A stretch of DNA of 64,000 nucleotides from Haloarcula marina. GTDB lineage: Archaea > Halobacteriota > Halobacteria > Halobacteriales > Haloarculaceae. The translations under genes and the position numbers were made by a program. Of the stretch, positions 1,854 through 24,291 are shown piece after piece (position 1 is the first letter of the stretch; each line of letters opens with the position of its first letter). The notes below the pieces were generated by a model that saw only the letters and a program-made list of their open reading frames with translations, did not search any database and had not been told where the DNA came from. The stretch spans positions 1,798,001-1,862,000 of the forward strand of contig NZ_CP100404.1 of the NCBI RefSeq assembly GCF_024218775.1, given 5' to 3'.

Positions 1854-2009
1854 GTAAGTCGTCCATGACCGCCGGGCAAAAACGTTGCGAGACGGCATCG
1901 CTCTGGTGTGTGGTGGCACAGCGTGTCCGGAATTTCGACGGTCAGCGGGACACCCGTCCAGTTTATGCGCCGAATTCACACGGTTCGCGGCGTGTGGTCC
2001 CCATTCTCA

Positions 2010-2046
2010 CACAACGTTTATACTGCAATGAGGAATAGTTATAGAT
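2010..2046 (+). promoter_or_regulatory. Archaeal promoter upstream of the small ORF / DUF5794-type gene
   Basis: The AT-rich TTTATA box at about 2017-2022 lies 25-30 nt before the ATG at 2047, the archaeal TATA to start distance. The rest of the guaB to 2047 gap (1854-2009) shows no convincing gene. It must also hold the guaB promoter reading leftward. Confidence 0.5.
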
Positions 2047-2217: not shown

Positions 2218-2223
2218 CCGGAC

Positions 2224-3111: not shown

Positions 3112-3155
3112 CGCTAAGGGGCAACGTTTAGGCGTCTCACGCGACGCACTCCTGT

Positions 3156-3383
3156 ATGGCCGACAACCGCGTAGTGCAAGGGCGGATGCAAACCCCTCAG
3201 AGCCTCGCCGAACTCATCGAAGGCGAGAGCGTGATGGACGCAGAACCGATAACCGACGCCGAGATGGACTGCCCTGAATGCGGCGAGAACGTCATCTCCG
3301 TCGGCTACATGCCCTCCGCGCTGGAGTTCGTCACTGGCTACAAGTGCCAAGAGTGTGACTGGTCAGACACCGACCGGGAGTAA
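3156..3383 (+). CDS. DUF5795-type small zinc-ribbon protein
   Basis: A 75-residue protein with a C-terminal zinc ribbon: CPECGEN at about residue 38 and CQECDWSD near the end give four Cys ligands. The N-terminal part is polar and probably helical. A TATA-like GTTTAG box (about 3126-3131) lies 28 nt before the ATG, so the transcript is probably leaderless. It sits just upstream of tRNA-Trp on the same strand. The specific function is unknown. Confidence 0.8.
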   Translation: MADNRVVQGRMQTPQSLAELIEGESVMDAEPITDAEMDCPECGENVISVGYMPSALEFVTGYKCQECDWSDTDRE

Positions 3384-3437
3384 CCGCCGTCCGGCAATCG
3401 AAATCCCTTTAATGCAACTCGGCTTACGCCGGAGTGC

Positions 3438-3618
3438 GGGGTCGTGGCCTAGTCCGGGAAGGCGGCTGACTCCAGAGGCCACGTGCCTGGGACGAAACTC
3501 CAAGGGCTGATATACTGAGCGACCGACTGATCATCGGTTCGCGACGATGACCCTCTGGAGTTCCGAGGCACAGGACGGAGATATCAGCCGATCGGGGGTT
3601 CAAATCCCTCCGACCCCA
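3438..3618 (+). tRNA. trnW: tRNA-Trp (anticodon CCA) with a 107-nt intron
   Basis: The acceptor stem pairs GGGGTCG (3438-3444) with CGACCCC (3611-3617), with discriminator A at 3618. The D arm is GCC/GGC, and the anticodon stem is GCTGA (3465-3469) with TCAGC (3584-3588). The anticodon CCA is at 3472-3474. The T arm spans 3594-3610 with loop TTCAAAT. The intron follows base 37, the usual archaeal position. The 3' CCA is not encoded. The last 15 bases with flank serve as the left attachment site of the downstream element, and integration leaves the tRNA intact. Confidence 0.97.
3476..3582 (+). ncRNA. tRNA-Trp intron, probable box C/D guide RNA
   Basis: The intron lies between G37 and A38. It contains a box C-like GATGA (3546-3550) and several CTGA box D-like motifs (3507-3510, 3514-3517, 3527-3530). 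CTGGAGT (3555-3561) is the exact reverse complement of exon bases 3469-3475 around the anticodon. GGCTGAT (3505-3511) is complementary to 3583-3589 at the 3' side of the anticodon stem. In Haloferax volcanii the tRNA-Trp intron guides 2'-O-methylation of C34 and U39, and the pairings here fit the same role. Confidence 0.8.
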
Positions 3619-3619
3619 T
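3605..3619 (+). repeat. Left attachment site (attL core)
   Basis: TCCCTCCGACCCCAT covers the end of the T arm and the 3' acceptor strand of tRNA-Trp plus one base past the discriminator. It is identical to 33327-33341. The flanking bases differ on both sides, so 15 bp is the full match. Confidence 0.9.
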
Positions 3620-5017: not shown

Positions 5018-5548
5018 ATGCCGTCGGCGACGCAGGCAGGCGACCGCCGCGAGCGGATGCGCTGTCCAAAACTCCTGGAACAGGTCGGCGAGGACCCCGC
5101 CCGCTGGTTGGACGCCGACCTCATGGGGAACGCCGGGCGGAAGCAACTCGTCTTCTCACTCATCAACGGCATCGACAGTCTCGAACGGATTACAGTGTGG
5201 CGTGCCGTCGAGAAGCGACTCGCGAACGAGCGCTACGCCGACGAGGCCCGAAACCCGCTCGACCAGCCACGGGCGGCGATTATGCAACGCCTCGATCAGC
5301 GCGAGGAGACACTCCGCCTCCAGGGCGAGCGTCCCGACCGACTCCCGTTCGGACCACGCGAGTCCTGTGAATGCTGTCAAGCCGACGGGTTCGTGACCGC
5401 CGCCGACCTTCGTGAACGTGACGCGAAGGAGCGTGCCCGGCTGACGGAAGGGTGGTCGCCCGACAGTGTCGACACGAATGAGACGACGCCGGAGACAGAG
5501 ACCGCGACGCTCGGCAAGTATGCCACCGACGGCGGTGAGGAGCGATGA
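5018..5548 (+). CDS. Hypothetical protein with a CxxC pair, upstream of the putative replication protein
   Basis: A 176-residue acidic protein with a mostly helical, charged N-terminal half and a CECC motif near residue 118. The ATG starting MPSATQAG was chosen. The last bases overlap the next gene (ATGA), so it is probably co-translated with the large winged-helix protein. Family not recognised; likely an accessory of replication or copy control. Confidence 0.65.
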   Translation: MPSATQAGDRRERMRCPKLLEQVGEDPARWLDADLMGNAGRKQLVFSLINGIDSLERITVWRAVEKRLANERYADEARNPLDQPRAAIMQRLDQREETLRLQGERPDRLPFGPRESCECCQADGFVTAADLRERDAKERARLTEGWSPDSVDTNETTPETETATLGKYATDGGEER

Positions 5549-7203
5549 CCGGTGTCTCGACGAGCATCGAGGAGGTCATCGACCTCCAGCCACACCGCAT
5601 CGGTGCGAATCTTGTGTTCGACGAGGGTGGTCTCTCTCCGTACTGGGCGGTGGTCAGTCAGTACGAACCCGACCTCGAAGACCGCGAGGAGACGTTCGTG
5701 TTCGACGGTACGGAGTACGATGTCGTCCGCTCGACGCATTGGACCGGCAAGATAGAGACCCCACCTTCGGCCACGTTCGACGGCGCGATGAACGAGTACA
5801 AACTCGGCGTGTATGCTGCGAACGACGAGAACGACGAACTCGGTGCGGACTTCACGTTCCGACCGGGGTTTCCAGAAGCGAAGCACGTCGAGACGGGCGA
5901 ACTCATCGGTGGGATGCCGACGCAGTGCCCCGAATCCATCCGCGTTCAGGTCGAATCGACGAATCTCTCGCAGTTCCAGGTGCTTGGGTTGCTCCAGTCG
6001 CTCGCGTCGCACCTCTCTATCGACGCGGGATACTTCGTCGACGCTCACGAGTGGTCGTCTATCTACGCACTCGAACTGTACGGACGCATCCTCCGCGAGG
6101 TCGCGACCGGGCGTATCGGCGGGAAAGGCGGCGTACTCGAACACCTCGCGCAGTTCTCGAACGGTCGCGGTCGCGGCGAGCACAAGTGGGACCACGAGAA
6201 GGTGAAAGCCCACTATGAAGCTGTCGCGCTGTCACCAAATAACTGGCAGCGGCTTCTCCCCGACCAGACGCTCGCGAAGCGGCTGAAGGCGTATCAACCG
6301 AAATGGGTTCGGTCAGAGGACACGGGTGACGACCCGCTCTATCACCACAAAATCGAATGTCAGTACTGGTCTGACTACTACCCAAATGGCGAGTCCGCGA
6401 TTCAGTGGCAGGGCTACGAGTCGGCGGTTGCGGAGTTCCGCCAAACGATCGTGAACGCGCTCCACTGGGCGGGCGTCGACTTCTCGCCGGAGTCTGACGT
6501 GTGGGTCGAGGACCCGTATTTCGAACCGGTTGAGGCCGACGACGCTGTCGACGTGTATCCGAACCCGATGCCTGACCTCGAACAGCAGGAACGGGCCGAT
6601 GCGCTCGACCAACTCGCTGGTCCGGAGACGACGGAAGGCGCGTGGGACGTCCTGGTCGCGATGACCGACGGCGGCGGTCGCCACTATCAAGCGGTTGCCG
6701 AGGACGCCGGGAAATCGGCGTCGACGGTGTATCGCGCGGCCGAGAAGTTCGGTGACATCATCGAGGTCGACAACGGCATGGTCCGATTCCGCGACGGTAT
6801 CGTTCGCGACCAGATTCGCGAGGTCGCCGAGCGCTGGCAGGCCACGAAAGACGCGACGACCGACGCACTCCGCCGCGTCGCCGACCGTGCCTCGCCGTTC
6901 TCTCGCCGCGATGACGGCGAACCGTCGGCGCTCGAACGGTGGGCGAACCGCCACGGTATCGTTATCCACTCGACGAGCGACCCACTGGAGATGGAGCTAC
7001 GAAAACCGGTCAGTCTACAGGATATCCTGAAGATACTCCGCTCCGGCCTCGACGCCGCGGAGGCGTCGCCACTGCCGACCGACCGCTTCGAGGACGCGCT
7101 CATCGACTGGAAAGGTCTCGATGGAGATGTTCGACGCGACCGCCGCGTCGTCGTCGACGGGCGGTTCCTCGGTAAGCACAACGTGGACCGACCCATCTGG
7201 TAA
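5545..7203 (+). CDS. Large winged-helix protein, putative replication protein
   Basis: A 552-residue protein resembling a haloarchaeal family I recall from plasmids and proviruses (DUF7845-like). The first 340 residues are a mixed domain with conserved-looking His/Tyr clusters (PLYHHKIECQYWSDYYP). Residues about 365-420 look like a winged helix (YQAVAEDAGKSASTVYRAAEKF). The C-terminal 130 residues hold another alpha/beta segment. It is the largest left-arm gene and is followed by a 417-nt non-coding region with two palindromes, the arrangement expected of an initiator and its origin. No catalytic Rep motif is clear, so replication is inferred. Confidence 0.6.
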   Translation: MTGVSTSIEEVIDLQPHRIGANLVFDEGGLSPYWAVVSQYEPDLEDREETFVFDGTEYDVVRSTHWTGKIETPPSATFDGAMNEYKLGVYAANDENDELGADFTFRPGFPEAKHVETGELIGGMPTQCPESIRVQVESTNLSQFQVLGLLQSLASHLSIDAGYFVDAHEWSSIYALELYGRILREVATGRIGGKGGVLEHLAQFSNGRGRGEHKWDHEKVKAHYEAVALSPNNWQRLLPDQTLAKRLKAYQPKWVRSEDTGDDPLYHHKIECQYWSDYYPNGESAIQWQGYESAVAEFRQTIVNALHWAGVDFSPESDVWVEDPYFEPVEADDAVDVYPNPMPDLEQQERADALDQLAGPETTEGAWDVLVAMTDGGGRHYQAVAEDAGKSASTVYRAAEKFGDIIEVDNGMVRFRDGIVRDQIREVAERWQATKDATTDALRRVADRASPFSRRDDGEPSALERWANRHGIVIHSTSDPLEMELRKPVSLQDILKILRSGLDAAEASPLPTDRFEDALIDWKGLDGDVRRDRRVVVDGRFLGKHNVDRPIW

Positions 7204-8773: not shown

Positions 8774-10420
8774 TCATCCCGAGAGCCTCCCGACCGCACT
8801 CGACGCCGCGTTGATGAGCGGTCGCCGGTAGCGATACGCCGCGACCGCCGCGCCGCCCGCCAACAGCACGACGCCGCCCGTCGACGCCCCGCCACCCGAC
8901 CCGGTCGGGCCGCCGAACGCTCCGCCAGTCCCGAACGACGCCGAGAGGTCCGTCGTCCCGTTGAACGTCGACCCGTTCGCGTACTCGCCCGAGTACGTCA
9001 TCATCGAGTCGTCCACATCCGAGGCGTTGCTCGTCACGCTGTCGTTCAAGAGCGCCTGATAGTACCGCGTCGCTTCGTCGAACTCGCGCGTCTGGTTGAA
9101 CAGCGCCGTGCCGTTCTCGTCGCGAATCGTGTAGTTGACACGGGTGACCGGCTCCGGAGACCGGACAGTGACCGACGTTCCGTCGTCCTCTTCGAGTTCG
9201 GCGAACCGCACGTCTAACCGCTCGTCGAGCGTCGGGGTCGTCTCGCCGGTCGCGGTCGGCGCGGCTGGCGTTCCGAGACTGGTCGTCTCGTCCCACAGGT
9301 CGGACTCCATGACGAGCGGCCCCTCGCGGATGGACTCGACGGCGATGAAACCGTACGTGTCCCACACCGCCGGATAATCGCTCGTCACTGTGAGGTTGTA
9401 GGTGCGACCGTCGACCATGCCGACGAACGCCCGGCCGTTGTGGTTGAACGAGCTCGTCGTCAGTGTTCCGTCCTCTCCGTAGACAGTCAGGCGCGGGTCC
9501 TCGTCCTCGAATATGGTCGCGTTCGTCCGGTCTTCCAGTGTGAACGCCATCTCGTAGCCGTACGAGAAGTCGACGCCCGAGGCGGCGCTCCCGGCAACCT
9601 CGATGTCCGTCGACGCTTTGCCGTACTCCGAGGAGTCGGCCGTAATCGTGTAATTACCGTCGTTCAACGACAGCGAGTAGTAGCCCGTCGCGTTCGTCGT
9701 CGTCGAGACGCCGGTCCCGGTTGAGACGTTGACGCCGGAGAGTGGGTCGCCGGTCTCGTCGAGGACACGGCCCGAGACCTCGCTTTTCGTCTCTGTCTCC
9801 GCCCGGATGTTATCTAAGAAGTACTCGGCTTCCACGGGACCCGCCGTTTGCAACGACGTGATTTGATTCAACGTAAAGGGCTTGCTCGTTTCTTCAAACA
9901 ACAATTCTCCATCGTGCGCCCATATCTGGTAATCTGCCGTGTTGTTCGTATAATCAATATTTGCTATCCGAATTGTGTACCATTTGTCCATTTCAGGATT
10001 AAATGTAGCAGATTCGTAACTTTGCTCGTTCTGGAAATAGATAACACCGCCATCTTTCGAGAGTCCGGCTATATCGTCTGCCGACGAAGTATCTCCGAAC
10101 TGCCCGATACCGTTCACATACGGGCCTAAGCTCTTGAAATACACATCGTATGAGACAGATGTGTATTGACCCTGTGGGAGATTGAGTACACCACTATCTG
10201 AAGTGGTGTCATATTGCCAGTGGAGCGAATCAGACCCTTCCGTCGCTGGAGCGGAGTTTACGTCATATCTGCCGCCGGGCGTGGAATACCAGCTAACCGA
10301 GTCCTCGAAACTCTCTAAGGAATCTCCACCAGTCGGCGCACCGACGGCCATGGGGACCGTGGATGCAACCAGTAGGGCGGCTAACAGTGCGACTTTCGCA
10401 GTTTGAAGTGGTTGTCTCAC
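8774..10420 (-). CDS. Secreted, C-terminally anchored surface protein
   Basis: A 548-residue protein. It has a signal peptide (about residues 1-28), an N-terminal beta-rich domain of about 190 residues resembling concanavalin/LamG folds, a carboxypeptidase-regulatory-like beta domain (SGRVLDETGDPLSGVNVSTG; residues about 215-285), two further beta-rich stretches, and a Gly-rich linker before a final transmembrane helix with a basic tail. Many N-x-S/T sites suggest glycosylation. The GTG start overlaps the upstream stop (TAGTG). DNA for the N-terminal domain (about 9780-10380) is clearly AT-richer than the rest. It is the last gene of the membrane operon and could be a receptor-binding or spike-like protein. 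Confidence 0.8.
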   Translation of the reverse strand: MRQPLQTAKVALLAALLVASTVPMAVGAPTGGDSLESFEDSVSWYSTPGGRYDVNSAPATEGSDSLHWQYDTTSDSGVLNLPQGQYTSVSYDVYFKSLGPYVNGIGQFGDTSSADDIAGLSKDGGVIYFQNEQSYESATFNPEMDKWYTIRIANIDYTNNTADYQIWAHDGELLFEETSKPFTLNQITSLQTAGPVEAEYFLDNIRAETETKSEVSGRVLDETGDPLSGVNVSTGTGVSTTTNATGYYSLSLNDGNYTITADSSEYGKASTDIEVAGSAASGVDFSYGYEMAFTLEDRTNATIFEDEDPRLTVYGEDGTLTTSSFNHNGRAFVGMVDGRTYNLTVTSDYPAVWDTYGFIAVESIREGPLVMESDLWDETTSLGTPAAPTATGETTPTLDERLDVRFAELEEDDGTSVTVRSPEPVTRVNYTIRDENGTALFNQTREFDEATRYYQALLNDSVTSNASDVDDSMMTYSGEYANGSTFNGTTDLSASFGTGGAFGGPTGSGGGASTGGVVLLAGGAAVAAYRYRRPLINAASSAVGRLSG

Positions 10421-10710
10421 TAGTGAACTACCTCCGAAATCTGGTTGAGTGCCTGTGCGACCAGCGAGCCGCCCGAGAGGTCGACGACGCCGACGTACGT
10501 CCCGACGGCCAGCACGACCGCGACAGCGCCGACGACGAACGAGGCGATACGGAGCCAGCGAGCGACGACGACCAGCAGGCCCGCGGCCTCTCTCGCGTAG
10601 TAGAGGCCGACAGCGGTCGCCGCCAGTGCCGAGACGAGTGCGCCCTCGACGCCGACGAACGGCGCGACCACCTCGGCGGCCGCACGGACGAGTTCGTAGA
10701 CGACTATCAC
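10420..10710 (-). CDS. Small membrane protein (two spans)
   Basis: A 96-residue protein with two or three hydrophobic segments (about residues 10-40 and 45-85) and few charged residues. Its stop overlaps the GTG of the surface-protein gene by one base. The 190-nt gap upstream (10711-10902) contains an AT-rich tract and may provide an internal promoter for this gene pair. Confidence 0.7.
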   Translation of the reverse strand: MIVVYELVRAAAEVVAPFVGVEGALVSALAATAVGLYYAREAAGLLVVVARWLRIASFVVGAVAVVLAVGTYVGVVDLSGGSLVAQALNQISEVVH

Positions 10711-10902
10711 GCGGGCGCACCTCCGCAGAACTGCGTGTGTCCGCGCGGGGGGACCCCCTCGTGTCCTATCTGAAGCACGCGCGCGTGTGAAGGCGAAATC
10801 TCGACCGGCGCGAGGCGGTCGCTCGACCCCGATTCGTCGAAGCGACCCCGTGGCCGAATCCGCTCAGATTTTTTAAATTTTTCTGAGCGAATGAGCTTCG
10901 TT

Positions 10903-12258
10903 TCAGACACCGCCGACCGCCTCCTGCCAATTGCGAAAGTCGATGCTGACCTCGGCGTCGAGTTTCGCCTGTGCCTTCAGATTCGGCCACTTGATGGGCG
11001 CGAAGTGCGGCGCTTTCCAGATGACGCCCTCGCCCGCATCCATGTCTGAGGTGAGGTCGGACTTCAGCGGACACGAGCGGTCGCCAGGAAGCGTCCGGCC
11101 GATGGGCGGCTTGTTCCCGTTCATCGTGAGCCGCCAGCGGATTTTCTGTCGGCCGAACTGGTGGACCTCAGAGAGTGCGTGGGCCTGATAGCCGAACGAG
11201 ACGCGTTTCTTCCGAGCGTCGGCGTACTTGTTCCGGAACCAGCGGAGTTTGTCGTAGTGCTCGTGAACGTCCTTCTCGGCGTCGGGGTCGAGCAGGTTCC
11301 CGGCCTCGTCGAAGTTGATGAACGTCGGATGCGGAAACGTGTCGCCCGAGATGCGGTGGGCGACGAACGCAAACCACCACTGGTCGGCGTCGGTCGGCTG
11401 GTTCGGCCCGTCCTCGTCGACCGGCGTCACTTCGCGGTAGTCGAAGTAGTTGAACTTCGAGACCTCCCGACACCCCCGATGCAACGGGTCGGGAAAGACG
11501 ACGTAGAACTGCCCCGGCATCAACTGGCCGACGAGGTCCTGTATGGACTCGTAGCGAACCACGTCGCGGGCGATGGCCTCCGGGCGGACCTCGAACTCGT
11601 CGACGGTCACATCCTCGGGCACGATACGGACACGCGTGTCCATGCCTTCCGGTATCGCGAGCGTCGCGAACGGCGCGAACGCCAGCCACTCAGTCCGCTC
11701 GTTCGTACCGGACTCGTCGACTGACTCCGCCCAAATGCAGGTCTCGTTGTTGTTTTCCATCCGCCAGAGAACCTGCGACAGCGCTAGCGTACTCTTGCCG
11801 CCGCCGGGTTCGCCGTGGACGAACAAGTCCGTGCCTTTCACCGCGCGTATGTCTCGAACGCGGTCGGGGTCGTCGGCTATCCACTCCAGCGTTTTCGCTC
11901 GGTAGCGCGGGTATCTCTCAAGTGCCTCGTGGGACGGGTTCGGGTCGCGAAAGTCGTAGTCGACCTTCCCCGCCAGCGCATCGAGAAGTTCGAGGTCGCG
12001 TTCGTCGGTGTGAACGATCGCGTCGACGAACGCCCGCGGGAACTTCGCGACCGCGGCGTCGTTCCGCTCGGCGGCCGCGAGGTACTTGTGCAGCGGCGGT
12101 ATCGAGAAGTGTCGGTGCAACTCCTCGCCGTCGTTGTGGTTCGGCGCTTCGACGTTGCCGAGCGCCTGACACGACTTCTCGTGTGGCTCAGTGGCTTCTC
12201 GTAGCTGTTCGCGTATCTTCGCCTGCGTATCGGCTTTGGGGTCGATTATCGTACTCAT
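10903..12258 (-). CDS. P-loop NTPase of the membrane module
   Basis: A 451-residue soluble ATPase. The Walker A motif is GEPGGGKST at about residues 149-157 and a Walker B-like strand TFINFDEAGN is near residue 311. A basic C-terminal region with RWRLTMNG follows. It resembles HerA/FtsK-type or virus-packaging and secretion ATPases more than AAA+ initiators; pleomorphic haloviruses likewise encode one NTPase next to their membrane and spike genes. It starts 4 bp after the upstream gene. It is the only obvious motor in the module, so it may power assembly, budding or DNA loading. Confidence 0.8.
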   Translation of the reverse strand: MSTIIDPKADTQAKIREQLREATEPHEKSCQALGNVEAPNHNDGEELHRHFSIPPLHKYLAAAERNDAAVAKFPRAFVDAIVHTDERDLELLDALAGKVDYDFRDPNPSHEALERYPRYRAKTLEWIADDPDRVRDIRAVKGTDLFVHGEPGGGKSTLALSQVLWRMENNNETCIWAESVDESGTNERTEWLAFAPFATLAIPEGMDTRVRIVPEDVTVDEFEVRPEAIARDVVRYESIQDLVGQLMPGQFYVVFPDPLHRGCREVSKFNYFDYREVTPVDEDGPNQPTDADQWWFAFVAHRISGDTFPHPTFINFDEAGNLLDPDAEKDVHEHYDKLRWFRNKYADARKKRVSFGYQAHALSEVHQFGRQKIRWRLTMNGNKPPIGRTLPGDRSCPLKSDLTSDMDAGEGVIWKAPHFAPIKWPNLKAQAKLDAEVSIDFRNWQEAVGGV

Positions 12259-12262
12259 CGTC

Positions 12263-13030
12263 TCACCAGTCCGGAGCCTCCGTATCGTCTGTCTGCCCCA
12301 CGTCGGGGCTTTCCTTGGCGCGGCCGCTCAGAACACGGACGCCACGCCGGAACGTCGGCAGAAGGTAGTGCGCCGCGAAGAGGCGGCGTGCCTGTGCATC
12401 TTTCTCGGACTCGCCGGTCAGAATCTCGACGGTGGACTGTTCGCGATAGACGCGCGTCACCCACTCTTTGCCGAGTTCGCCGTGTGTGGCGAGGAGCACG
12501 TCGTGGCCCCAGTCGAGGATTTCCGCGCGCTCCTCGAACCCGTCGAGAAGCGACCCGAGCGCCCGCTGTTGCCACTCTTCGAGTTCGGAGATAGCGGGCC
12601 GCATCGCGACTAAGCGTTGCCGTGTGGCTTCGTGAGCGTCCTCGTCGTCGGCGGCGTCGATGTACTCCGTTGCATCACCTCGGAGTCGCCGAAACGAGTT
12701 CCGGTGGGCAGGGTGGATGTAGTGAGCGAGAAACCACTCTCGGAGTTGCTCGGCCCTCCGCTCGTCGAGGTCGGTCATCTCGCCCCGGCGCTTGCTCGGG
12801 ACGACGAGCGCGGCCAGCAGGACGCCTTGGGACCCGCGGAACTGGCGCGTCATGTCCGAGTAGACGCGCGTGTCCAACCGTCCGAGCGTCCGGATGGTCA
12901 TCTCCTGCAACCACGTCAGCACGCGCTTTTCCGAGCGAAGTCCGTGCTGGAGTTCCGTCGTGAGTTCGCGAACGTCCTCAGTGAGGGTGACGAGTGCCGG
13001 ACGGTACGGCTTTGGGGCGGCGTCAGTCAT
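12263..13030 (-). CDS. Helical cytoplasmic protein of the membrane module
   Basis: A 255-residue, mostly alpha-helical soluble protein with no signal peptide or membrane helix and a high content of Arg and Glu. The ATG (MTDAAPKPY) overlaps the end of the large membrane-protein gene by 8 nt, and its stop is 4 nt from the ATPase start. It lies between the membrane protein and the ATPase and may be an adaptor. No family recognised. Confidence 0.7.
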   Translation of the reverse strand: MTDAAPKPYRPALVTLTEDVRELTTELQHGLRSEKRVLTWLQEMTIRTLGRLDTRVYSDMTRQFRGSQGVLLAALVVPSKRRGEMTDLDERRAEQLREWFLAHYIHPAHRNSFRRLRGDATEYIDAADDEDAHEATRQRLVAMRPAISELEEWQQRALGSLLDGFEERAEILDWGHDVLLATHGELGKEWVTRVYREQSTVEILTGESEKDAQARRLFAAHYLLPTFRRGVRVLSGRAKESPDVGQTDDTEAPDW

Positions 13031-14708
13031 CGTCGGCCACCTCGCCGTTAGAGAGCGGCGTGTCCCGTTTCCCCTCGGTGACTTCGTCGTCGGTCTCGGC
13101 ATCGAGGTCGGCGGCCGGGACTTTCTCGTCGGGGTCGTACATCCCCTCGACGAGCGTACGGTCGTGGGCCGCGACTTCGCGGTCCACGTCGCGCTGTTTG
13201 CGCATCCGCTCGCCGTCGAGTTTCTGTTTCAGTTCGTCGAACCGCTTGGCGTCGTCCACGTCCTCCGCGTACTGGAGCATCGTCGCGAACGCCGTCCGAA
13301 GGTGAACCGGCGCGGGTCGGACGGCGGCTTTCCCGTCGGTCGGGGTCGCCAGCCACACGAGGAGACCGCCGCCTGTGACGGCAGTCATGGCTACCGCCGA
13401 GGCGACGCCAGTGTAGACCGACGCCGCGGCCAGCATGACCGCGCCACCGATAGCCAGCCACTCCCCAGCGTGAACACGGTCCAGTGGCGGCCAGTCGAGC
13501 GTCCAGCCCTCTTTCTCGTAGAACAGCAGTTCCGGGGACTCAGGGTCGACGAGGAACATCTCATCCCACTTTCCGCTGACCGGAACGCGAGTCCGGAGTT
13601 GCTCGACGTTCTTCAACTCGGCACTCTTGCCGAACACGCGAGCGAGGAACGGGAAGACGCCCTGCGTGACGACGGCGACCGTCCTGTCCGGCTTGCGGAC
13701 GATTGTCTCCTCGCGAACTTCGGCGTCGACCATGTCGAACGCGTCGTCACCGGTCGGCGACTCGGCGTGTTCGAGCGTCGGTCGGACGAATCCGGCCGTG
13801 CTGACGCCGCTCGTGTAGGTCTCCAGCAGGATGATACCGAACAGGCCGACGACGTACAGCGAGACGATGTACTGCGCGTTCACGACGAGGTTCGCGATGC
13901 CCTCGTAGAACAGGAGGCCGCCGAGACCGGTCCCTATTGAGAGCGCCAGTATCCACGGGAAGTAGCCGTATCCCGGCCCTCTCCCCGCCCTGTCGAGTGC
14001 TCGCTTACAGACCAACCCGACGGCGAACCCGCCGATGACGATGATGAGGAGGAAGTCGACGATGACGCTCGCGATGTAGTCACCAGCGCTGTTGATGTCC
14101 ACGGACTGCGTGGTAGCGATGCTCTGGTGGCCGAAGTTGGCCCATCGTGCGTACTCTTTGCCCTCTATCCACATCGTCACGCGAACTTCGTCGTCGTGCT
14201 GACGGAGTGGAATCTCGACGGTCGGCCGACCGCGCTCGAAGGTGACGTTGTGGGTGACGTGGGTGACGTTCCGAGCGACCGGGACTGTGGTCGTCGTGTT
14301 ACCCTCTTGGACGACCTTCTGACCCTTCTGCCAGTAGGCGACGTGAACGGTCTCCTGCTGGTCCTCGTAGGTCCACGTCCGGAGATACACCGAGTTCCGA
14401 CCGACGGTGTGGCCCGGCGGTAGGTACTCGCCGCCGTCGGTCGCACCGACGTTCGCGAACGGGTTGTTCGCTGGCCAGTAGACCGCCCAAAAGAACTGTT
14501 CCTCGCCCATCCGGACGCTCGGAGGCGAGTTCGCTTGCCGCGGCCCGGTCTCTGTGAGGTCGTCGAGCGTGAGACCGTTGTCGGCGCTGGCGTTGCTCGT
14601 CGCGTTCCCGGTCGTCTGTTGGGCGTCGGCGAGACCGACGACGCCGACGACGGGAGCGGCGACGAGGAGAGCGGCCAGCGCGACCAGCACGATGGACGCG
14701 CGTTTCAT
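13023..14708 (-). CDS. Large multi-domain membrane protein (561 residues)
   Basis: It has an N-terminal signal sequence ending near residue 30, then an extracellular beta-rich domain of about 180 residues with several N-glycosylation sites (GNTTTT, RNVTHVTHNVTF). A membrane domain of about four helices (about residues 210-310) follows, then a cytoplasmic stretch, a further pair of helices (about 415-455) and an acidic, charged C-terminal tail. The topology suggests a scaffold linking the outside to the cytoplasmic ATPase. It overlaps both neighbouring genes, and no known family is evident. Confidence 0.75.
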   Translation of the reverse strand: MKRASIVLVALAALLVAAPVVGVVGLADAQQTTGNATSNASADNGLTLDDLTETGPRQANSPPSVRMGEEQFFWAVYWPANNPFANVGATDGGEYLPPGHTVGRNSVYLRTWTYEDQQETVHVAYWQKGQKVVQEGNTTTTVPVARNVTHVTHNVTFERGRPTVEIPLRQHDDEVRVTMWIEGKEYARWANFGHQSIATTQSVDINSAGDYIASVIVDFLLIIVIGGFAVGLVCKRALDRAGRGPGYGYFPWILALSIGTGLGGLLFYEGIANLVVNAQYIVSLYVVGLFGIILLETYTSGVSTAGFVRPTLEHAESPTGDDAFDMVDAEVREETIVRKPDRTVAVVTQGVFPFLARVFGKSAELKNVEQLRTRVPVSGKWDEMFLVDPESPELLFYEKEGWTLDWPPLDRVHAGEWLAIGGAVMLAAASVYTGVASAVAMTAVTGGGLLVWLATPTDGKAAVRPAPVHLRTAFATMLQYAEDVDDAKRFDELKQKLDGERMRKQRDVDREVAAHDRTLVEGMYDPDEKVPAADLDAETDDEVTEGKRDTPLSNGEVADDD

Positions 14709-14929
14709 CGGTTCTGTCGCGCCACCTCTCGGGCGGATTCGTCAACGCGTTTCAGGAGGACCAGCCCTCCGAGGAGTAGGAGTACCGACGGGGCGACCAC
14801 TCCGACGCTCCCCGACGCGGTCGCCGACCCGGCTGCGAATGCACCGGCCCCGAGCGCCGCGAATCCGATTACGGCATCGTCGACGACCGCCGGATGGGTC
14901 AGTGTCCGGAGTGGATACGGCTCAGTCAT
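14705..14929 (-). CDS. Small two-span membrane protein
   Basis: A 74-residue protein with two closely spaced hydrophobic helices (about residues 17-60) and a charged C terminus (KRVDESAREVARQNR). Both ends overlap neighbouring genes (8 nt upstream, 4 nt downstream), which supports it as a real gene in a coupled operon. Confidence 0.7.
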   Translation of the reverse strand: MTEPYPLRTLTHPAVVDDAVIGFAALGAGAFAAGSATASGSVGVVAPSVLLLLGGLVLLKRVDESAREVARQNR

Positions 14930-15401
14930 CGGCGACCTCCGCAGTGATACCGGTGTCGTGGCCGATGCTCTCGATGAAGACGCGGGACTCCGCATCGGCG
15001 GTGGCACACTCGCCCGAACAGTAGACGAACGTGCTCTGCTGGCGCTCGACGACGAGCGAGAGCGGGCCGAGGCGGGCGCGACGGGGCGTTCCCGATGCGT
15101 GAACTTCGACGAACTCGTCGGTCGCGTCACGACTAGAATGCGAGCGCACTATCTCGCCGCAGTGGTCGCACGTCGATTGGCACTCTGGTCTAGCGTTTTC
15201 GTAAGCGCCGATTCCGCCGAGAAGCGCGATTAAGCCGCCGATGACGATAGGCTCAATCCACGGTCCGCCCCAAACGCTCGCGAGGACGACCTCGCGGACA
15301 GTGTAGCTGATGCCCGCCACCGACAACCAGACTCCGCCCCAACCGAGTAGCGAGAGGTCTGACAGCCGGACGCTGTCGACGGAGAGGAACCTACCCGACA
15401 T
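14922..15401 (-). CDS. Membrane protein with a zinc-ribbon-like tail
   Basis: A 159-residue protein with two hydrophobic segments (about residues 15-70), then a soluble domain with CQSTCDHC and, about 60 residues later, CSGEC, the ligands of a probable zinc ribbon. The ATG (MSGRFLSV) overlaps the upstream gene by 11 nt. The mix of membrane anchor and zinc finger recurs in the left arm of the element. Confidence 0.7.
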   Translation of the reverse strand: MSGRFLSVDSVRLSDLSLLGWGGVWLSVAGISYTVREVVLASVWGGPWIEPIVIGGLIALLGGIGAYENARPECQSTCDHCGEIVRSHSSRDATDEFVEVHASGTPRRARLGPLSLVVERQQSTFVYCSGECATADAESRVFIESIGHDTGITAEVADD

Positions 15402-15780
15402 ACTCGTCGACCCTCCCGAAGACGAACACGACACCGATGAGCATCAACGCGAGTCCGATGAACTGGCCCGTCGAGAGCGTGAACAGTCCCGACAGCGCGC
15501 CAGCGCCGAGGCCGGTTACGCCGAGGTTCGAGACAACGAACGGATGCCCGACGATGAACTCGAAGCCGCCGGAGACGACAGCCCCGAGTTCGATGAGGCC
15601 CACCGAGACCGCCGCTCCGAGACCCATCGCCAGCGTCATCGCCCATTTTGTCGTCCTGTCCCACGCGATTTCGAGGTCCTCCGACCGGGCGTAGGCGACG
15701 CCGAACCGCGCGAGGAACACGAGACCGAGAACGGCGGCAACAGCGCCCGCGCCAGCCAACAGGTCGAGGCCGTACGGCAC
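15391..15780 (-). CDS. Four-span membrane protein
   Basis: A 129-residue protein with four hydrophobic stretches and Gly/Ala-rich helices, ending FVFGRVDEYVG. The GTG start overlaps the stop of the preceding micro-gene by one base (TAGTG). Size and pattern suit a small structural or pore-like component of the module. Confidence 0.7.
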   Translation of the reverse strand: MPYGLDLLAGAGAVAAVLGLVFLARFGVAYARSEDLEIAWDRTTKWAMTLAMGLGAAVSVGLIELGAVVSGGFEFIVGHPFVVSNLGVTGLGAGALSGLFTLSTGQFIGLALMLIGVVFVFGRVDEYVG

Positions 15781-15866
15781 TATCGCTCACCTTCCGGTCG
15801 GCGAGTGATGCGCCCTCTCCGTGAGGGGATTCTGTCCGTCTGTTTCGAGTGGTTGGTTCGTTTCAT
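15780..15866 (-). CDS. 28-residue basic micro-protein inside the operon
   Basis: An ATG-to-TAG frame of 28 residues, about 40 percent Arg/Lys/His, starting MKRTNHSK. Its ATG overlaps the upstream stop (ATGA) and its TAG overlaps the downstream GTG. It fills exactly the only sizeable gap between membrane genes. That double overlap is hard to explain unless ribosomes translate it, though it might serve only for coupling. Confidence 0.55.
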   Translation of the reverse strand: MKRTNHSKQTDRIPSRRGRITRRPEGER

Positions 15867-16150
15867 CGTTCGTTGTACCACGTTTTCGCACGGCTGGCGA
15901 GACGGTCCAGTTGCACGCCGACAAACAGGATTGCCGCCGCGAGGAGCACCTTCGTCCCGAGGTCGGCGAATCCGATTTCCGGGGCGATTGTTCCGGCCGT
16001 CACCGCAACTGCCGGGAACCACATCCCCGAGGTCGTCGAGACGAGGCTCCAGAGCGGTTCGAACAGCCCGAACCCGAGTTGCCCGACGGCACTCAGACCG
16101 AGTGCGCCAGCCGTCAGCGGGTGGGAAATGAGTTGTTTCAGTCGTTGCAT
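15863..16150 (-). CDS. Small membrane protein
   Basis: A 95-residue protein with a short basic N terminus (MQRLKQLISH), hydrophobic segments at about residues 12-32, 40-57 and 65-83, and a charged end. It starts 2 bp after the upstream stop and overlaps the basic micro-gene by 4 nt. Confidence 0.7.
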   Translation of the reverse strand: MQRLKQLISHPLTAGALGLSAVGQLGFGLFEPLWSLVSTTSGMWFPAVAVTAGTIAPEIGFADLGTKVLLAAAILFVGVQLDRLASRAKTWYNER

Positions 16151-16152
16151 GG

Positions 16153-16593
16153 CTATCTCAGCCCCAGCAGGTCGACGATGCTACTCCCGACCGGGATTTC
16201 GCCGAGGAGCGCGACGGCTACGCGGTAGCCGAGGTACAGCGTGACTGCCGTGAATCCGATAGCGAGAAACGGTCCGCCCGGTCCGGCGACCCGAACAGCG
16301 CTCCCTATCACCTGTTGTACCGACAGGTAGGCCGCGAGAAGGTCGATACCGATGCTCCCGAAGGCTCTGACGAGCGTCACGCGAATCCCGTCGAAGAATC
16401 CGGCGACTATGCCGAACGCCGATAGGACCGAATTGACACCGAACGCGCCGAGGTTCAGGACCGACCTGACGATGTAGCCGGAGATAATCGCGCCGACGTA
16501 CGTGACAGGGTTCCGAGCGAACGCAAATAGCGTCTTGGCGACGTTCTCCGGCACTCGAAGGGTGAACAGCGTCTCGTCACTGCTACCGGACAC
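16153..16593 (-). CDS. Multi-span membrane protein
   Basis: A 146-residue protein starting at GTG (VSGSSDETLF). A short amphipathic N terminus precedes about three or four hydrophobic segments. The segment GGPFLAIGFTAVTLYLGYRVAVALL is the clearest helix. The gene overlaps its upstream neighbour by 11 nt. No family recognised. Confidence 0.7.
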   Translation of the reverse strand: MSGSSDETLFTLRVPENVAKTLFAFARNPVTYVGAIISGYIVRSVLNLGAFGVNSVLSAFGIVAGFFDGIRVTLVRAFGSIGIDLLAAYLSVQQVIGSAVRVAGPGGPFLAIGFTAVTLYLGYRVAVALLGEIPVGSSIVDLLGLR

Positions 16594-16927
16594 GAGACAC
16601 CACCCACGCGATAGGGAACAGCGTCACCAGCACGATACCGAGCGCGACGAAGTAGCCCGCGAACCCGGCGTCGAGGACGAACGGCAGTGCTTCCGCAAAC
16701 CCTTGCTCAATGATGACGCTCGGGAGGCCGTAGACGATGCCGACGGCCTGCGCGAGAAAGTCGGTGTAGCCCGACAGCAGGCCTATCGGGATGTCGACCA
16801 GCGACAGGAACGCCGTGACGAACCCGCGGACGTAGGCGAAGATGCCAGCGCCGAACAGGACGATTCCGAGTTCGCGCCATTTGATGGAGACGCCGTCTGC
16901 GGCGATGTAGTCGCTGATTCGGACCAT
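16583..16927 (-). CDS. Multi-span membrane protein
   Basis: A 114-residue protein with three hydrophobic segments and a C-terminal basic residue cluster (WVVSRVR). The ATG (MVRISDYI) sits 1 nt after the stop of the upstream gene. It resembles its two neighbours in size and layout, so these small membrane genes may have arisen by duplication. Confidence 0.7.
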   Translation of the reverse strand: MVRISDYIAADGVSIKWRELGIVLFGAGIFAYVRGFVTAFLSLVDIPIGLLSGYTDFLAQAVGIVYGLPSVIIEQGFAEALPFVLDAGFAGYFVALGIVLVTLFPIAWVVSRVR

Positions 16928-16928
16928 G

Positions 16929-17390
16929 CTATTCTTCCTCGTTGTCCTCTTCGGGACCTTGGAAAAACGGCGTGGGAACGTCGAACGGCAGTCCAACAGC
17001 GAAGTTCCCTGTCTCAGGCCTTGAGATGTAGGCATTGACAAGCAACAGCGCCAGCAGGACCGCGCCGATTCCAAGCGCGAACGTCAGCGGCCCGACGTTG
17101 AACATCCCGCCCGGCCCGATTGAGGTCGCCGTGCCCAGTGCGCCGAACTGGATAATCGTCGCCGACCCGCCGAAAATCGCGTTGATGAGGTCGCCGACCG
17201 CACCGGTCAGCGTCGACAACGGGACGATAATCACGTCGGCGACGGTGAAGATGCCGCTCGCGAGGGCCGACCCGGCGGCGAAGAACACCGCGCCGATGCC
17301 CTGGAGGATGATACCGGCGAGGCTGTCGGCCGCGGCGGCCCGGTCGAACAGACGGCGGATACGTTTCCCGCCCGCGCCGGACGCGGACAC
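16929..17390 (-). CDS. Multi-span membrane protein
   Basis: A 153-residue protein. The GTG starting SASGAGGKR lies 2 nt after the upstream stop. It has a basic N-terminal segment (KRIRRLFDR), then four hydrophobic stretches rich in Gly, Ala and Ile, and an acidic tail ending EEDNEEE. It lies just downstream of the surface protein at 17393 and could be its membrane partner. Confidence 0.7.
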   Translation of the reverse strand: MSASGAGGKRIRRLFDRAAAADSLAGIILQGIGAVFFAAGSALASGIFTVADVIIVPLSTLTGAVGDLINAIFGGSATIIQFGALGTATSIGPGGMFNVGPLTFALGIGAVLLALLLVNAYISRPETGNFAVGLPFDVPTPFFQGPEEDNEEE

Positions 17391-17392
17391 AG

Positions 17393-18889
17393 TTACGACC
17401 CTCCGCCCACGAGGCGGCTCAGGCCGACAGCGCCCGCGATTGCGGCCACAACGCCGGTAATCTGGCCCCAAATGTTGGAGAAGAACCCGCCGCTACTGGT
17501 GTCAGTCGGGCCGCCCGTCATGCTCGTGTCTTGGAGCGTGTCGGCCTCCTCGTTCTGGAGGAGGACGACCATGTGGACGCGGTGGTTCGTGTCCGCGCTG
17601 GCGTCGGCGATGAACGTCGCCGTCGACCCCTGCGAACCGAACGAACTCGTGACGCTGGAGTACGCACCGTCCTCGTCGGTGAGGTTGCCGAACTCCTCGT
17701 CGGTGTCCGCACCGGTCGCGACCTCGGCGACCACGTAACGGGACTCGACGAGGCCCTGCTCGAACTCCAGCGAGATGGTCCCGTGGATGATGTCGATAGC
17801 CGACGGGACCTCCATGTCCCCGTACAGTTCGAGTTTCTGTGGGTAGTTGTAGTCGTCAGCCGACGAGAACTCCGTCCAGTACTCGTCGCTGTCGGTCAGG
17901 TCGGCGAACTGGTAGTGAACATCGTAGACCTTGAGGTCAGTGATGACGGCGTTGTCGAAGGCCGACCCCATCGTGTCGAGGCCGGTCAGCTTCGCGACGC
18001 CGCCCTCGTAGTAGTCCGTGACGCTCGTCGTTTCGAGGTCGCCGTCGTTGTCGGTGTCACGCTGGATTTCGCCGAGCGTGTCCGTGCTCTTCGTGCCGAG
18101 GTCGAGGCCCGCGACTGTGACAGTCACGTCGTTGTCGAGCCCGACGATTTCGACTTTCTGGATGCCGTCGAACGTGCCGTCACCGCTCCCGCCCATCGGG
18201 AGGTCCGACATCCGCTGTTGGAAAACGATGCCGTTGCCCGTGCTGTTCGCGACGACGGCCTCGTTCGAGGCGTCTCGCGAAGAGTTGAGTTCGGCGTAGC
18301 GGTAGTCACCGTCAGCGTCGACGGCGCGGAGTTCGGCCGTACCGTCGAGGGTGTCGACGTTCAGGACGCCGGTCATGACGCGCTTGTTCGCGTCGGTGGT
18401 GATGCTGACGTTGTCCGAGAGGGTGGCCGTCGCGGTCTCCGTGCTGGCGACCATGGCGGCGAACTGGAGTTTGTCGACGCCGTCAGCGTCGGCGTCAGTG
18501 ATGGACATCGACGAGGACGCACCCGAGGAGGTGGTCCAGTCGGAGGCGACGGTCCAGTTTGCGGAGTTCTCCACTTCGCCGTCGATGCGTGGGAACAGCG
18601 TGTACCGGTCAGCGTCAACCTTGTCGAAGCGGACGCCAACGGGTGTGTCCTGCGATTGGTTCACCGTCGCCGGGAGACGAGCGATTTCGCCGGAGTCGTT
18701 GTAGTACTCCAGTGGGTCGTCCATCTCGCCCCGGTCGTGGGTGACGATTGTGAGTTCGTCCTCGACGAACGTCGGGTTCGGTGCTTTCTCTGAAGTGAAG
18801 TTCACTCCGGGGGCCGCCGAGGCGGTCCCAAGAGCGGGCGATGCGATGAGGGTCAGCGCGAGGAATACGGCCAGTATCGGTTTTCTCAT
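17393..18889 (-). CDS. Secreted surface protein with C-terminal membrane helix (spike-like)
   Basis: A 498-residue protein with a cleavable signal peptide (ends near TASAAPGV, residue 27) and a long, strongly acidic beta-rich ectodomain with many Asp/Thr/Ser residues. A short linker (TGGPTDTSSGG) leads to a terminal transmembrane helix, IWGQITGVVAAIAGAVGLSRL. This matches the overall design of pleolipovirus spike proteins, but I see no diagnostic motif. It is the first large gene of the operon. Its start overlaps the stop of the upstream 68-residue gene (ATGA). Confidence 0.8.
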   Translation of the reverse strand: MRKPILAVFLALTLIASPALGTASAAPGVNFTSEKAPNPTFVEDELTIVTHDRGEMDDPLEYYNDSGEIARLPATVNQSQDTPVGVRFDKVDADRYTLFPRIDGEVENSANWTVASDWTTSSGASSSMSITDADADGVDKLQFAAMVASTETATATLSDNVSITTDANKRVMTGVLNVDTLDGTAELRAVDADGDYRYAELNSSRDASNEAVVANSTGNGIVFQQRMSDLPMGGSGDGTFDGIQKVEIVGLDNDVTVTVAGLDLGTKSTDTLGEIQRDTDNDGDLETTSVTDYYEGGVAKLTGLDTMGSAFDNAVITDLKVYDVHYQFADLTDSDEYWTEFSSADDYNYPQKLELYGDMEVPSAIDIIHGTISLEFEQGLVESRYVVAEVATGADTDEEFGNLTDEDGAYSSVTSSFGSQGSTATFIADASADTNHRVHMVVLLQNEEADTLQDTSMTGGPTDTSSGGFFSNIWGQITGVVAAIAGAVGLSRLVGGGS

Positions 18890-19092
18890 GCGGTTTCGGG
18901 GCGGTTCCGGTCGCTACCCGTGGTTTCGTGATACTGTTCGGCGTCGAGGTCGCGACTCGCGCCACCCGCCTCGTGACGGATTCGGGCGCGCTCTCGCTCG
19001 TCGATGTTTCGCCACTCTGTTCGGAACGGCCCTGGTGCGGAGTCAGCCGCGTTATCCGGCGGTTCGTCGCCGCCAGACTCGTGGTCAGGCAT
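18886..19092 (-). CDS. Small soluble protein at the head of the membrane operon
   Basis: A 68-residue, highly polar protein with no membrane helix, rich in Asp, Glu and Arg. It is the promoter-proximal gene of the leftward membrane module and overlaps the spike-like gene by 4 nt. The 5' leader may contain the hairpin CCCGCTG/CAGCGGG (about 19109-19127). A divergent promoter region separates it from the AbrB-like gene. Function unknown; a regulator or assembly factor is possible. Confidence 0.6.
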   Translation of the reverse strand: MPDHESGGDEPPDNAADSAPGPFRTEWRNIDERERARIRHEAGGASRDLDAEQYHETTGSDRNRPETA

Positions 19093-19246
19093 GGTAGAGG
19101 TACTAGCCCGCTGTTTCCCAGCGGGTTGCCCGCTCACCCACGGCTTAAGCCATATACTCCCCGCTGAGCGTACAGAACATGCGCCGCTGGTGCACCAACG
19201 TCGCCATGGAAGCTAAGTTTAATAGTCCAGATATGTCCCTTCCTCT
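19093..19246. promoter_or_regulatory. Divergent promoter region between the membrane operon and the AbrB-like gene
   Basis: Rightward, the box AGTTTAATAG (19216-19225) lies about 26 nt before the ATG at 19247. Leftward, a TATATGG-like element (about 19152-19160) precedes the membrane operon. A CCCGCTG/CAGCGGG hairpin lies between, close to the leftward start. The arrangement would let the AbrB-like protein control both directions. Confidence 0.55.
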
Positions 19247-19504
19247 ATGCAGAAACTTCAGAACCGGAACGGATCCGGTGTGGTGACGGTTCCGAAATCG
19301 TTCCTCGACCGTGACGGCCTCCTAGATGAGGATGGCGAGCCCGATGAGTCGCATCTCATGGTCGAGCGCCTCGGGGAGCGCGCCTATGTGGTGCGGGTTT
19401 GTGACGGCGACATTCCAGAATTGTCTGAGTGTGAGGAGATTCAACGAATCGCTGCTGAACGGATGCTAGACGAGGACGTATTTGGACGTCGGCAGGGTGA
19501 GTGA
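19247..19504 (+). CDS. AbrB/SpoVT-like small DNA-binding protein
   Basis: An 85-residue protein. The first 55 residues (QKLQNRNGSGVVTVPKSFL) match the swapped-hairpin AbrB pattern of a short strand, a turn, then VTVPK. The leaderless promoter is clear. It is divergent to the membrane operon, which makes it the best candidate regulator for that operon. AbrB-like proteins are also antitoxins, but no toxin gene follows it. Confidence 0.75.
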   Translation: MQKLQNRNGSGVVTVPKSFLDRDGLLDEDGEPDESHLMVERLGERAYVVRVCDGDIPELSECEEIQRIAAERMLDEDVFGRRQGE

Positions 19505-19684: not shown

Positions 19685-20533
19685 TTACAAAACAGATTCC
19701 AAATCTTCAGAAATAAGCTCAACCCGAATCTGCCGGGTAAGTTCATTGAGTACCGTCGGAATAACCAGTGATAAATATCCGTCCTCAGACCAATCGATAG
19801 CATACTCAAGCATCCAAGTCGGGACCTCAGTTGTCAACTTCCACTGTGAATCTGTTTTATTGTCCTCTATATGGAACTGAGTCGCATTCGATACCTCACT
19901 ATCTGTGAGCGTTGCAGAAGCAAATAATGAGTCAGTATTCGACAACATTTCCTCGGGGAGCGTCCCGCGCAGGGCGACTGGGTAGCTGGTTGTAATGCTC
20001 GCGAAATGCCACCTATTTCTTTGAATTTCCGAAAAGTACGTGTTGACGGCGTTTTCAGCTTCTTTATGGGTCTGTGGATTATGCTGTCTAAGTATTTCAT
20101 CTACAACAGGACGGAGATGTCCGAGCGGAACCAGATAGATACCGTGGGCACGCGCCAATTTGATGGCACTAGATGAAAATCCTGAGGTCGAAAAGACGGC
20201 AAAACACTCCACTCGTCGGTCACCTGCTGGATCTCCTGATTGACTCTCATAATTTTCGTCGATGTCCTTTCGGACTGTGATCGCCTCGCGAATGATATCA
20301 ACTCCGACAGAGTAGTTTGGTTTGTAGCATTTTGCTTCGCCGAACAGCCGAATCGGATTTACAAACGGGATTGAGTGCTTGTATTGACCGAACGCATCTA
20401 ATTCGTGGTCCGCCCCACGACCCTCGAATTTGCCTGTACTCGGGTCAAACTTCGGGTCATCTCGATTAAGCCGGTCGTAGCCTTGATTGAGGAGTATCTT
20501 CTGGACGATTTGTTCCAGAACCTTGCCTTTCAT
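19685..20533 (-). CDS. PD-(D/E)XK family endonuclease (Mrr-like)
   Basis: A 282-residue protein. The N-terminal half shows the nuclease core: an early Glu (E7) in the first helix, Asp46 in HELDAF, and the E66-A-K68 signature in LFGEAKCYK, followed by a helix with GVDIIREAI. This matches Mrr_cat-type enzymes that cut DNA or modified DNA. The C-terminal half (about residues 150-282) is an unrecognised domain. A TTTAAAT box 28 nt upstream indicates a leaderless promoter. Low GC and its place in the cargo zone suggest a defence or inter-element conflict role. Confidence 0.75.
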   Translation of the reverse strand: MKGKVLEQIVQKILLNQGYDRLNRDDPKFDPSTGKFEGRGADHELDAFGQYKHSIPFVNPIRLFGEAKCYKPNYSVGVDIIREAITVRKDIDENYESQSGDPAGDRRVECFAVFSTSGFSSSAIKLARAHGIYLVPLGHLRPVVDEILRQHNPQTHKEAENAVNTYFSEIQRNRWHFASITTSYPVALRGTLPEEMLSNTDSLFASATLTDSEVSNATQFHIEDNKTDSQWKLTTEVPTWMLEYAIDWSEDGYLSLVIPTVLNELTRQIRVELISEDLESVL

Positions 20534-23691: not shown

Positions 23692-24291
23692 TCAATCATG
23701 ACCTATCTCAGCAAACGCGTCGTCGATGACTTCCTCACTGGGTGCGTTTAGGTAGGGTTCGATAGCAGCGAAACTGTCCCATCCCCCGACAGCCATTACG
23801 ACCCGCGGATTTACCTGCTCGTCGACCAGGAGGCGCTGAGCGAACCGTCGACGGAGGTCGTGAGTACTAACCTTCTCGAAATCTTCGTCACCAGTCGCCT
23901 TGGCGGCTCGACTCGCCGTCCGTCGGACGACCGCACGGACGCCGGGTTGCGAGAGGTCGATGTATGAGTCCTTCGGCGCGATGTTGTGTTCGTTCTGGTA
24001 GCGCTGGAGATCCCGCTCGACGCTGTCGGGGAGGTAGGCATCGCGAGGCTTTCCGCCGTTACCGCTCGTGTCCTTGCCTGCCCGGACGCGGAGGCGGTAC
24101 TGCCCGCGCTCGCTCTCTTTCACGTCGACAGGGCTGACCTGTGGGATTTCGAAGGCACGTAGGCCGACGAGCGCACCTAGCTGGATAATCAGGTCGTCGC
24201 GCTGGCTGTTCGTCGCCCGTCGGAGGTCATCGATTTCACTGTCGGTCAGCCAGACCTTGTGTTCCGTACCCCGGGTGGCCTCAATTCGCAT
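23692..24291 (-). CDS. Minimal tyrosine recombinase (catalytic domain only)
   Basis: A 199-residue recombinase with the catalytic set: R45 in GLRAFEI, H144-x-x-R147 in THDLRR, G170-W171 in VGGWD and nucleophile Y180 in IEPYL. It lacks the N-terminal SAM-like core-binding domain of normal integrases, being about 100 residues short. It belongs to a type seen in haloarchaeal elements. It is the second recombinase in this element and does not lie next to an att end, so it may act on resolution, inversion or an earlier nested insertion. Confidence 0.8.
   Translation of the reverse strand: MRIEATRGTEHKVWLTDSEIDDLRRATNSQRDDLIIQLGALVGLRAFEIPQVSPVDVKESERGQYRLRVRAGKDTSGNGGKPRDAYLPDSVERDLQRYQNEHNIAPKDSYIDLSQPGVRAVVRRTASRAAKATGDEDFEKVSTHDLRRRFAQRLLVDEQVNPRVVMAVGGWDSFAAIEPYLNAPSEEVIDDAFAEIGHD

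Follow-up and report, generated by a model that had tools for sequence, protein, structure and literature searches.

A conserved haloarchaeal membrane-protein operon with a HerA/FtsK-type ATPase is a candidate DNA-transfer module of tRNA-integrating plasmids

We analyzed a 64,000-nucleotide stretch of the Haloarcula marina genome (contig NZ_CP100404.1, positions 1,798,001 to 1,862,000; hereafter the window, with positions counted from its first letter), which harbors a tightly packed operon of membrane, surface and ATPase genes at 8774–19092. The operon lies within a ~29.7-kb element integrated at a tRNA gene, and its core recurs in one order in 43 haloarchaeal loci. It probably moves the DNA of its element out of the cell, be it in vesicles, in virus-like particles or through contact between cells. 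We see an even chance that it is the DNA-transfer module of a ~26–35 kb haloarchaeal plasmid family integrating at tRNA genes, with a particle-type mechanism as working model.

The operon comprises 16 leftward genes, A to O and G2, all on the minus strand, with junctions from A to O of -4, +2, +1, -11, +2, -4, -1, -11, -8, -4, -8, +4, -8, -4 and -1 nt. A first reading of the letters (the original prediction) had described fifteen leftward, tightly packed genes, all of which are present in this place and orientation; it overlooked G2 (15780–15866), a 28-codon open reading frame (ORF) bridging F and G, which shares 4 and 1 nt with its neighbors and has 64% identity to its counterpart in a relative locus (L036). 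The operon is confirmed as real, and its layout suggests co-transcription. Membrane helices were predicted by hydropathy scan alone. The first gene, A (18886–19092; in 6 loci), encodes the expected soluble protein of 68 amino acids (aa), followed by B (17393–18889; 498 aa; 42 loci), a core surface protein with a signal peptide and a C-terminal helix. Small membrane proteins with one to three predicted helices each are encoded by the core genes C (16929–17390; 153 aa), D (16583–16927; 114 aa; profile overlapping that of C) and E (16153–16593; 146 aa), each in 43 loci, and F (15863–16150; 95 aa; 42 loci), by G (15391–15780; 129 aa; three helices; 25 loci), and by I (14705–14929; 74 aa) and N (10420–10710; two helices), both clade-specific in the locus comparison. 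With the lineage-specific, single-helix H (14922–15401; 159 aa), hydropathy yields seven to eight small membrane proteins where about ten multi-span proteins had been counted. The core protein J (13023–14708) has the 561 residues and the membrane character ascribed to it, with a predicted signal peptide, an ectodomain, about three further helices and a cytosolic part. The core protein K (12263–13030; 255 aa; 43 loci) and the clade-specific M (10707–10910; 67 aa) are soluble by the same scan, whereas L (10903–12258; 451 aa; core) is the P-loop ATPase and O (8774–10420; 548 aa) a secreted or anchored surface protein. B fits the description of a signal-peptide protein with a C-terminal anchor; O has a signal peptide and only a weak C-terminal hydrophobic stretch.

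Conservation was assessed in 391 haloarchaeal genomes, a sample of the class, with E-values of the whole-genome searches given per genome. An L-family ATPase occurs in 69 of them; an independent search with the J profile likewise returned 69 genomes from 23 of 86 genera, 67 of them common to both sets. The 20-kb surroundings of 40 L-family loci from 39 genomes were then compared, with ORFs of the relatives called mechanically and their 5′-end lengths therefore uncertain. Genes of the C/D, E, J, K and L families stand in one order in all 40, and B is present in 39; the order B-C-D-E-F-(G)-J-K-L is fixed in the sampled loci, 43 in total, in line with the predicted coherent membrane and surface module with one P-loop ATPase. 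Profiles of C, D and E match one another, so these genes may be paralogues. Ratios of nonsynonymous to synonymous substitution (dN/dS, NG86, against three relatives) range from 0.09 to 0.64 for B, C–G, J, K and L and from 0.66 to 1.1 for M and N. Given the order kept in 43 loci and the low core-gene dN/dS, the cluster is far beyond chance, and together with the co-occurrence of J and L these data argue for one functional unit. The parts list of the original prediction lacked a further component usual in the family, a protein of ~1000 aa whose signal peptide and large ectodomain are followed by four or five C-terminal helices, and whose gene lies after L or before J in 39 of the 43 loci. The window lacks it, as do the close relatives L005, L006 and L036 of the window, and the copy of locus L042 is lost at a contig end; in the window clade its place is occupied by M-N-O, with O confined to that clade (L006, L036) in the locus comparison.

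The predicted structure of L (AlphaFold2, AF2; mean predicted local distance difference test, pLDDT, 92.4) places it in the HerA/FtsK ATPase superfamily, with a modeled RecA-like fold carrying Walker A and Walker B (DE) motifs. The model matches HerA best among the structures named here (Z 16.0, 218 residues aligned), ahead of B204, the packaging NTPase of STIV2 (Z 14.3), the conjugative coupling protein TrwB (Z 13.7), VirB4 (Z 13.4) and FtsK (Z 12.3). Residues K155 and D317-E318 are invariant in 39 sequences, and R349 and a PDP motif (256–258) are invariant as well. The HerA, B204, VirB4 and TrwB folds and the invariant catalytic residues point to a DNA motor, and homology suggests that L drives DNA movement at the expense of ATP. 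K, whose gene lies directly upstream of the ATPase gene, is a candidate adaptor between the membrane complex and this motor. For B, the AF2 model (pLDDT 85.3) predicts an all-beta ectodomain whose residues 94–270 form a CBM11-like beta-sandwich (Z 13.5) that also resembles the turret of Haloferax tailed virus 1 (HFTV1; Z 11.0), a likeness that suggests surface binding; pleolipovirus spikes do not appear among the matches listed, which by itself does not prove a difference. An anchored carbohydrate-binding-like domain and a HerA-type motor would be expected parts of a DNA-transfer particle or apparatus, although a shared fold shows no function.

Annotation libraries assign nearly nothing to the operon proteins. 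Within the operon, Pfam only names a carboxypeptidase-regulatory-like domain in O (residues 215–285; PF13620, E 2.1e-13), and J has no Pfam match in 36 members; NCBIfam makes no assignment, and the only PHROGs match is phrog_22963, a family without assigned function that 31 of 39 L members hit. An attempt to trace this family to a named virus with tblastn of five L-family members gave no match in phage records. Distant L-family ATPases (E 1e-26 to 1e-10 in the whole-genome search) were also found in five genomes of the phylum that are not among the sampled carriers (L114–L118). They were rejected as module carriers, as they lie in other neighborhoods with small membrane proteins and without J, K or B, and their loci are possibly other mobile elements.

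The original prediction overlooked the integrative element of ~29.7 kb that surrounds it (3605–33341). This element is bounded by the 15-bp direct repeat TCCCTCCGACCCCAT, with one copy at the 3′ end of the tRNA (3605–3619) and the other at 33327–33341, 60 bp past the integrase gene. The attachment gene is an intron-containing tRNA-Trp (3438–3618, plus strand; Rfam RF00005, 46.8 bits; ARAGORN with introns, anticodon CCA), and the tyrosine integrase U (32104–33267, plus strand; Pfam PF00589, E 9.8e-6, just under the cut-off) adjoins the right attachment (att) repeat and has homologues in all seven mapped chromosomal copies. In L107, a congeneric genome, homology to window positions 1923–3618 is followed after 152 bp by homology to 33971–35299; as the flanks are only 152 bp apart, the element is absent there and the site is empty. 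Integrase, direct repeats at the tRNA 3′ end and empty site identify a tRNA-integrative element. The ~630 bp to its right (33342–33970) are likewise absent from this relative.

Such tRNA-end repeats, 15–21 bp long, delimit elements of 26–35 kb in seven of the eight chromosomal copies examined, that of the window included, at tRNA genes for Trp, Lys, Lys, Met, Pro, Ile and Trp and with a homologous integrase at one end. The module is also found on free plasmids, namely Haloarcula marismortui pNG300 (NC_006391; 39,521 bp, circular) and Haloarcula taiwanensis CP019157, and on a 37-kb contig with identical 15-bp ends. Att repeats, integrase, tRNA targets, empty site and free circular plasmids together establish a mobile element. 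A 163-kb Halosegnis marinus plasmid carries apparently two module copies (L003 and NZ_CP119803.1:134547-136085) besides a family B DNA polymerase. Replication of the window element would depend on P (5545–7203, plus strand), a Rep-Arvir/DUF7845 rolling-circle replication initiator (Pfam PF25227, E 5.7e-85) that scores 286 bits over residues 12–328 against a family cut-off of 27. SNJ2, a pleolipovirus, was recently shown to rely on this family for rolling-circle replication (PMC13107129). Rep-Arvir is similar to Rep_trans, the fold that the relaxase of ICEBs1 has, and some elements with DUF7845 count as integrative and conjugative (PMC13107129). The element further encodes T, an Orc1/Cdc6-type protein (26667–27791, plus strand; Pfam Cdc6_lid, E 4.7e-11).

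To place the module among known elements, profiles of B, C, D, E, F, G, J, K and L were compared by HMMER and HHalign with HRPV-1, HRPV-3, HRPV-6, His1, His2, LSV-48N, the pR1SE-like core of pHTUR05 and the pT26-2-type plasmid pMEFER01, and those of B, J, K and L with SNJ1; pHTUR05 represents its relative pR1SE and was picked via PMC10818511 and its S8-peptidase gene block. No module protein has a convincing relative in these elements, the remaining matches being P-loop or signal-peptide segments, and structural-gene kinship with pleolipoviruses, His1, SNJ1 and LSV-48N was rejected. The resemblance to pleolipovirus spike and NTPase that had been proposed finds no backing in the profile comparisons with HRPV-1, HRPV-3, HRPV-6 and His2: VP3-, VP4-, ORF6-7- and VP8-like genes of Pleolipoviridae were not matched by hmmsearch or hhalign (at most 69%, in a 57-aa stretch of the ATPase, and otherwise <35%). 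Pleolipoviruses share the logic of a small membrane protein, an anchored surface protein and an NTPase, and HRPV-3 ORF9 is homologous to Rep-Arvir P, whereas B, C–G, J, K and L have no profile similarity to the four viruses compared. The lemon-shaped virus LSV-48N (PMC12714723), temperate and circular at ~25 kb, encodes homologous Rep-Arvir (E 1e-98) and Orc1/Cdc6 (E 4e-123) proteins, but no structural genes homologous to the module.

Closest in architecture is the core of the pT26-2 family, 17–38 kb plasmids of Thermococcales and Methanococcales that are free or tRNA-integrated (PMC6972569). That conserved block likewise combines large anchored surface proteins, small multi-helix membrane proteins, carbohydrate-binding and carboxypeptidase-regulatory domains and one ~450-aa HerA-like ATPase; 9 of its 12 proteins have membrane helices, the ATPase resembles VirB4 and B204, a novel mechanism of DNA or protein transfer has been proposed for it, and the core is kept in degenerate copies (PMC6972569). 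The two differ in hosts and in replication protein (MCM there, Rep-Arvir here) and have no profile similarity: no counterparts of the seven pT26-2 core genes were found, the best HH probability against pMEFER01 being 2% with single sequences on the pMEFER01 side, where a remote kinship of the ATPases is possible. The likeness to pR1SE noted in the original prediction holds for the general design; kinship is not supported by the profile comparisons. pR1SE-like plasmids (apHPVs) are haloarchaeal, can integrate and carry a membrane-protein block, variable surface proteins and a HerA/VirB4-like ATPase, and pR1SE DNA travels in self-encoded vesicles (PMC10818511). However, the profiles of B, C–G, J, K, L and family f6 gave only signal-peptide matches with the pHTUR05 core, L against pHTUR05 ORF25 reached 0.4%, and the module elements are smaller, have their own Rep-Arvir and revealed neither the S8 protease nor the ORF6-type coat protein. 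An equation of J-K-L with pR1SE ORF23-24-25, drawn from their like architecture, was rejected, as J matches ORF23 only via the signal peptide. The best reading is that the module is analogous to pT26-2 and pR1SE in design and unrelated to them in sequence.

In our working model, the integrase would excise the element from tRNA-Trp and Rep-Arvir would copy it by rolling circle, both steps being suggested by homology. The architecture further suggests that C–G and J may assemble a complex in the cell membrane, which K would tie to the HerA/FtsK-type motor L, arranged as a ring. This motor would then pump the circular DNA through or into a membrane patch that may bud off as a vesicle bearing proteins or as a simple enveloped particle, while B, carbohydrate-binding-like, together with O, or the ~1000-aa protein elsewhere, would be displayed outside and bind the next cell. 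The fullest form of this proposal, in which B, C–G, J, K, L and a variable large surface protein constitute a sequence-unrelated membrane-particle DNA-packaging machine spreading integrative plasmids as self-encoded vesicles, we regard as tenable at slightly less than even chances. Several observations weigh against the working model. The small membrane proteins all lack a fold or family assignment, and motors with the fold of L also work in conjugation and DNA repair. Phage records yielded no copy of the module, and IMG/VR yielded none when scanned with the ATPase as a single sequence or as an alignment; the B alignment had no stretch conserved enough for such a scan. Moreover, the literature found holds no particle, vesicle proteome or transfer assay for any member.

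The main rival is contact-dependent conjugation, in which J and the small membrane proteins would form a mating channel, L would be the coupling or secretion ATPase, Rep-Arvir would nick the DNA as the relaxase, and B and O would be adhesins keeping mating cells attached to one another. DNA secretion by cell contact competes with the envelope or vesicle-forming machine of the original prediction because the L fold is common to packaging NTPases, VirB4 and conjugative coupling proteins, and L matches TrwB and VirB4 about as well as packaging NTPases; the Rep_trans-like fold of Rep-Arvir and the conjugative elements among its carriers point the same way (PMC13107129). We nevertheless consider conjugation unlikely: the operon encodes one ATPase and not a VirB4 and VirD4 pair, no Pfam or NCBIfam match to membrane components of type IV secretion systems was obtained in the proteins scanned, and MOB-suite, whose training is mainly bacterial, rates all plasmid carriers non-mobilizable. 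Packaging into membrane particles is favored over contact-dependent transfer, the vesicle or enveloped-particle step being suggested by the pR1SE analogy, by the wealth of small membrane proteins and of proteins displayed at the surface, and by the missing second conjugation ATPase. The single ATPase is not universal: in pNG300, an additional AAA ATPase is encoded between K and L (L122, 35979–37928). This plasmid has C, E, F, J, K, L and the gene for the ~1000-aa surface protein in the same order; B was not detected on it.

Two further readings are less probable still. The element could be a temperate provirus of a new family of simple enveloped viruses, pleomorphic or lemon-shaped, with B–O encoding the virion. 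The LSV-48N-like Rep-Arvir and Cdc6, the turret-like domain of B, the element size and the tRNA integration fit this idea; the structural genes, without profile match to LSV-48N, His1, His2, HRPV or SNJ1, and the absence of the module from the phage and IMG/VR collections make it improbable. It differs from the vesicle model mostly in name and particle type, and sequence alone cannot separate the two. Least likely of all, and to our mind doubtful, is a domesticated or host-beneficial apparatus for surface display, secretion or cell–cell interaction that merely rides on mobile elements. Adhesion-type domains in several surface proteins and the retention of the analogous pT26-2 core in degenerate copies (PMC6972569) would suit such a role, but in the mapped copies the module goes together with integrase, att repeats and replication genes, and its distribution is patchy.

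Several neighboring features complete the picture of the element. Divergent from the operon lies S (19247–19504, plus strand), an AbrB-like candidate operon regulator found in 29 loci, mostly divergent just upstream; the interval between them (19093–19246) contains, by reading, the palindrome CCGCTGGGAAACAGCGG and a TATA-like stretch, a candidate operator and promoter. Directly upstream of the replication gene, Q (5018–5548, plus strand) encodes a 176-aa protein also present in loci L005 and L006. A mini-CRISPR at 27866–28157 (minus strand) consists of four exact 30-bp repeats (RF01337), a degenerate fifth and four 35–36-bp spacers, which have no match with ≤8 mismatches among the sequences compared; no cas genes were noticed in the element, where no systematic search for them was made, and the array is possibly a weapon against competing elements. 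A 199-aa ORF at 23692–24291 (minus strand) resembles, by reading, the catalytic domain of a second tyrosine recombinase, perhaps a leftover of another insertion, and 19685–20533 (minus strand) may encode an Mrr-type restriction endonuclease as candidate cargo (Pfam E 0.0011, below cut-off). Elsewhere in the genome, a second, truncated DUF7845 gene (C1:2923670-2924101) is likely a remnant of another element.

The scale of DNA exchange among haloarchaea still needs explaining, and the module is a candidate route. It is common, uniform and nearly unannotated, most of its proteins being listed as hypothetical although it occurs in 18% of the sampled species, about one in six; even in pNG300 its genes are annotated as hypothetical or AAA family ATPase. 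The element ends, the replication gene and the plasmid forms can now be named. As pNG300 is a sequenced plasmid of a cultured Haloarcula marismortui strain and hence a named, free member of the family, transfer by vesicle, virus or cell contact is directly testable. If the vesicle model is true, the module would join pR1SE and, putatively, pT26-2 as a third independent solution.

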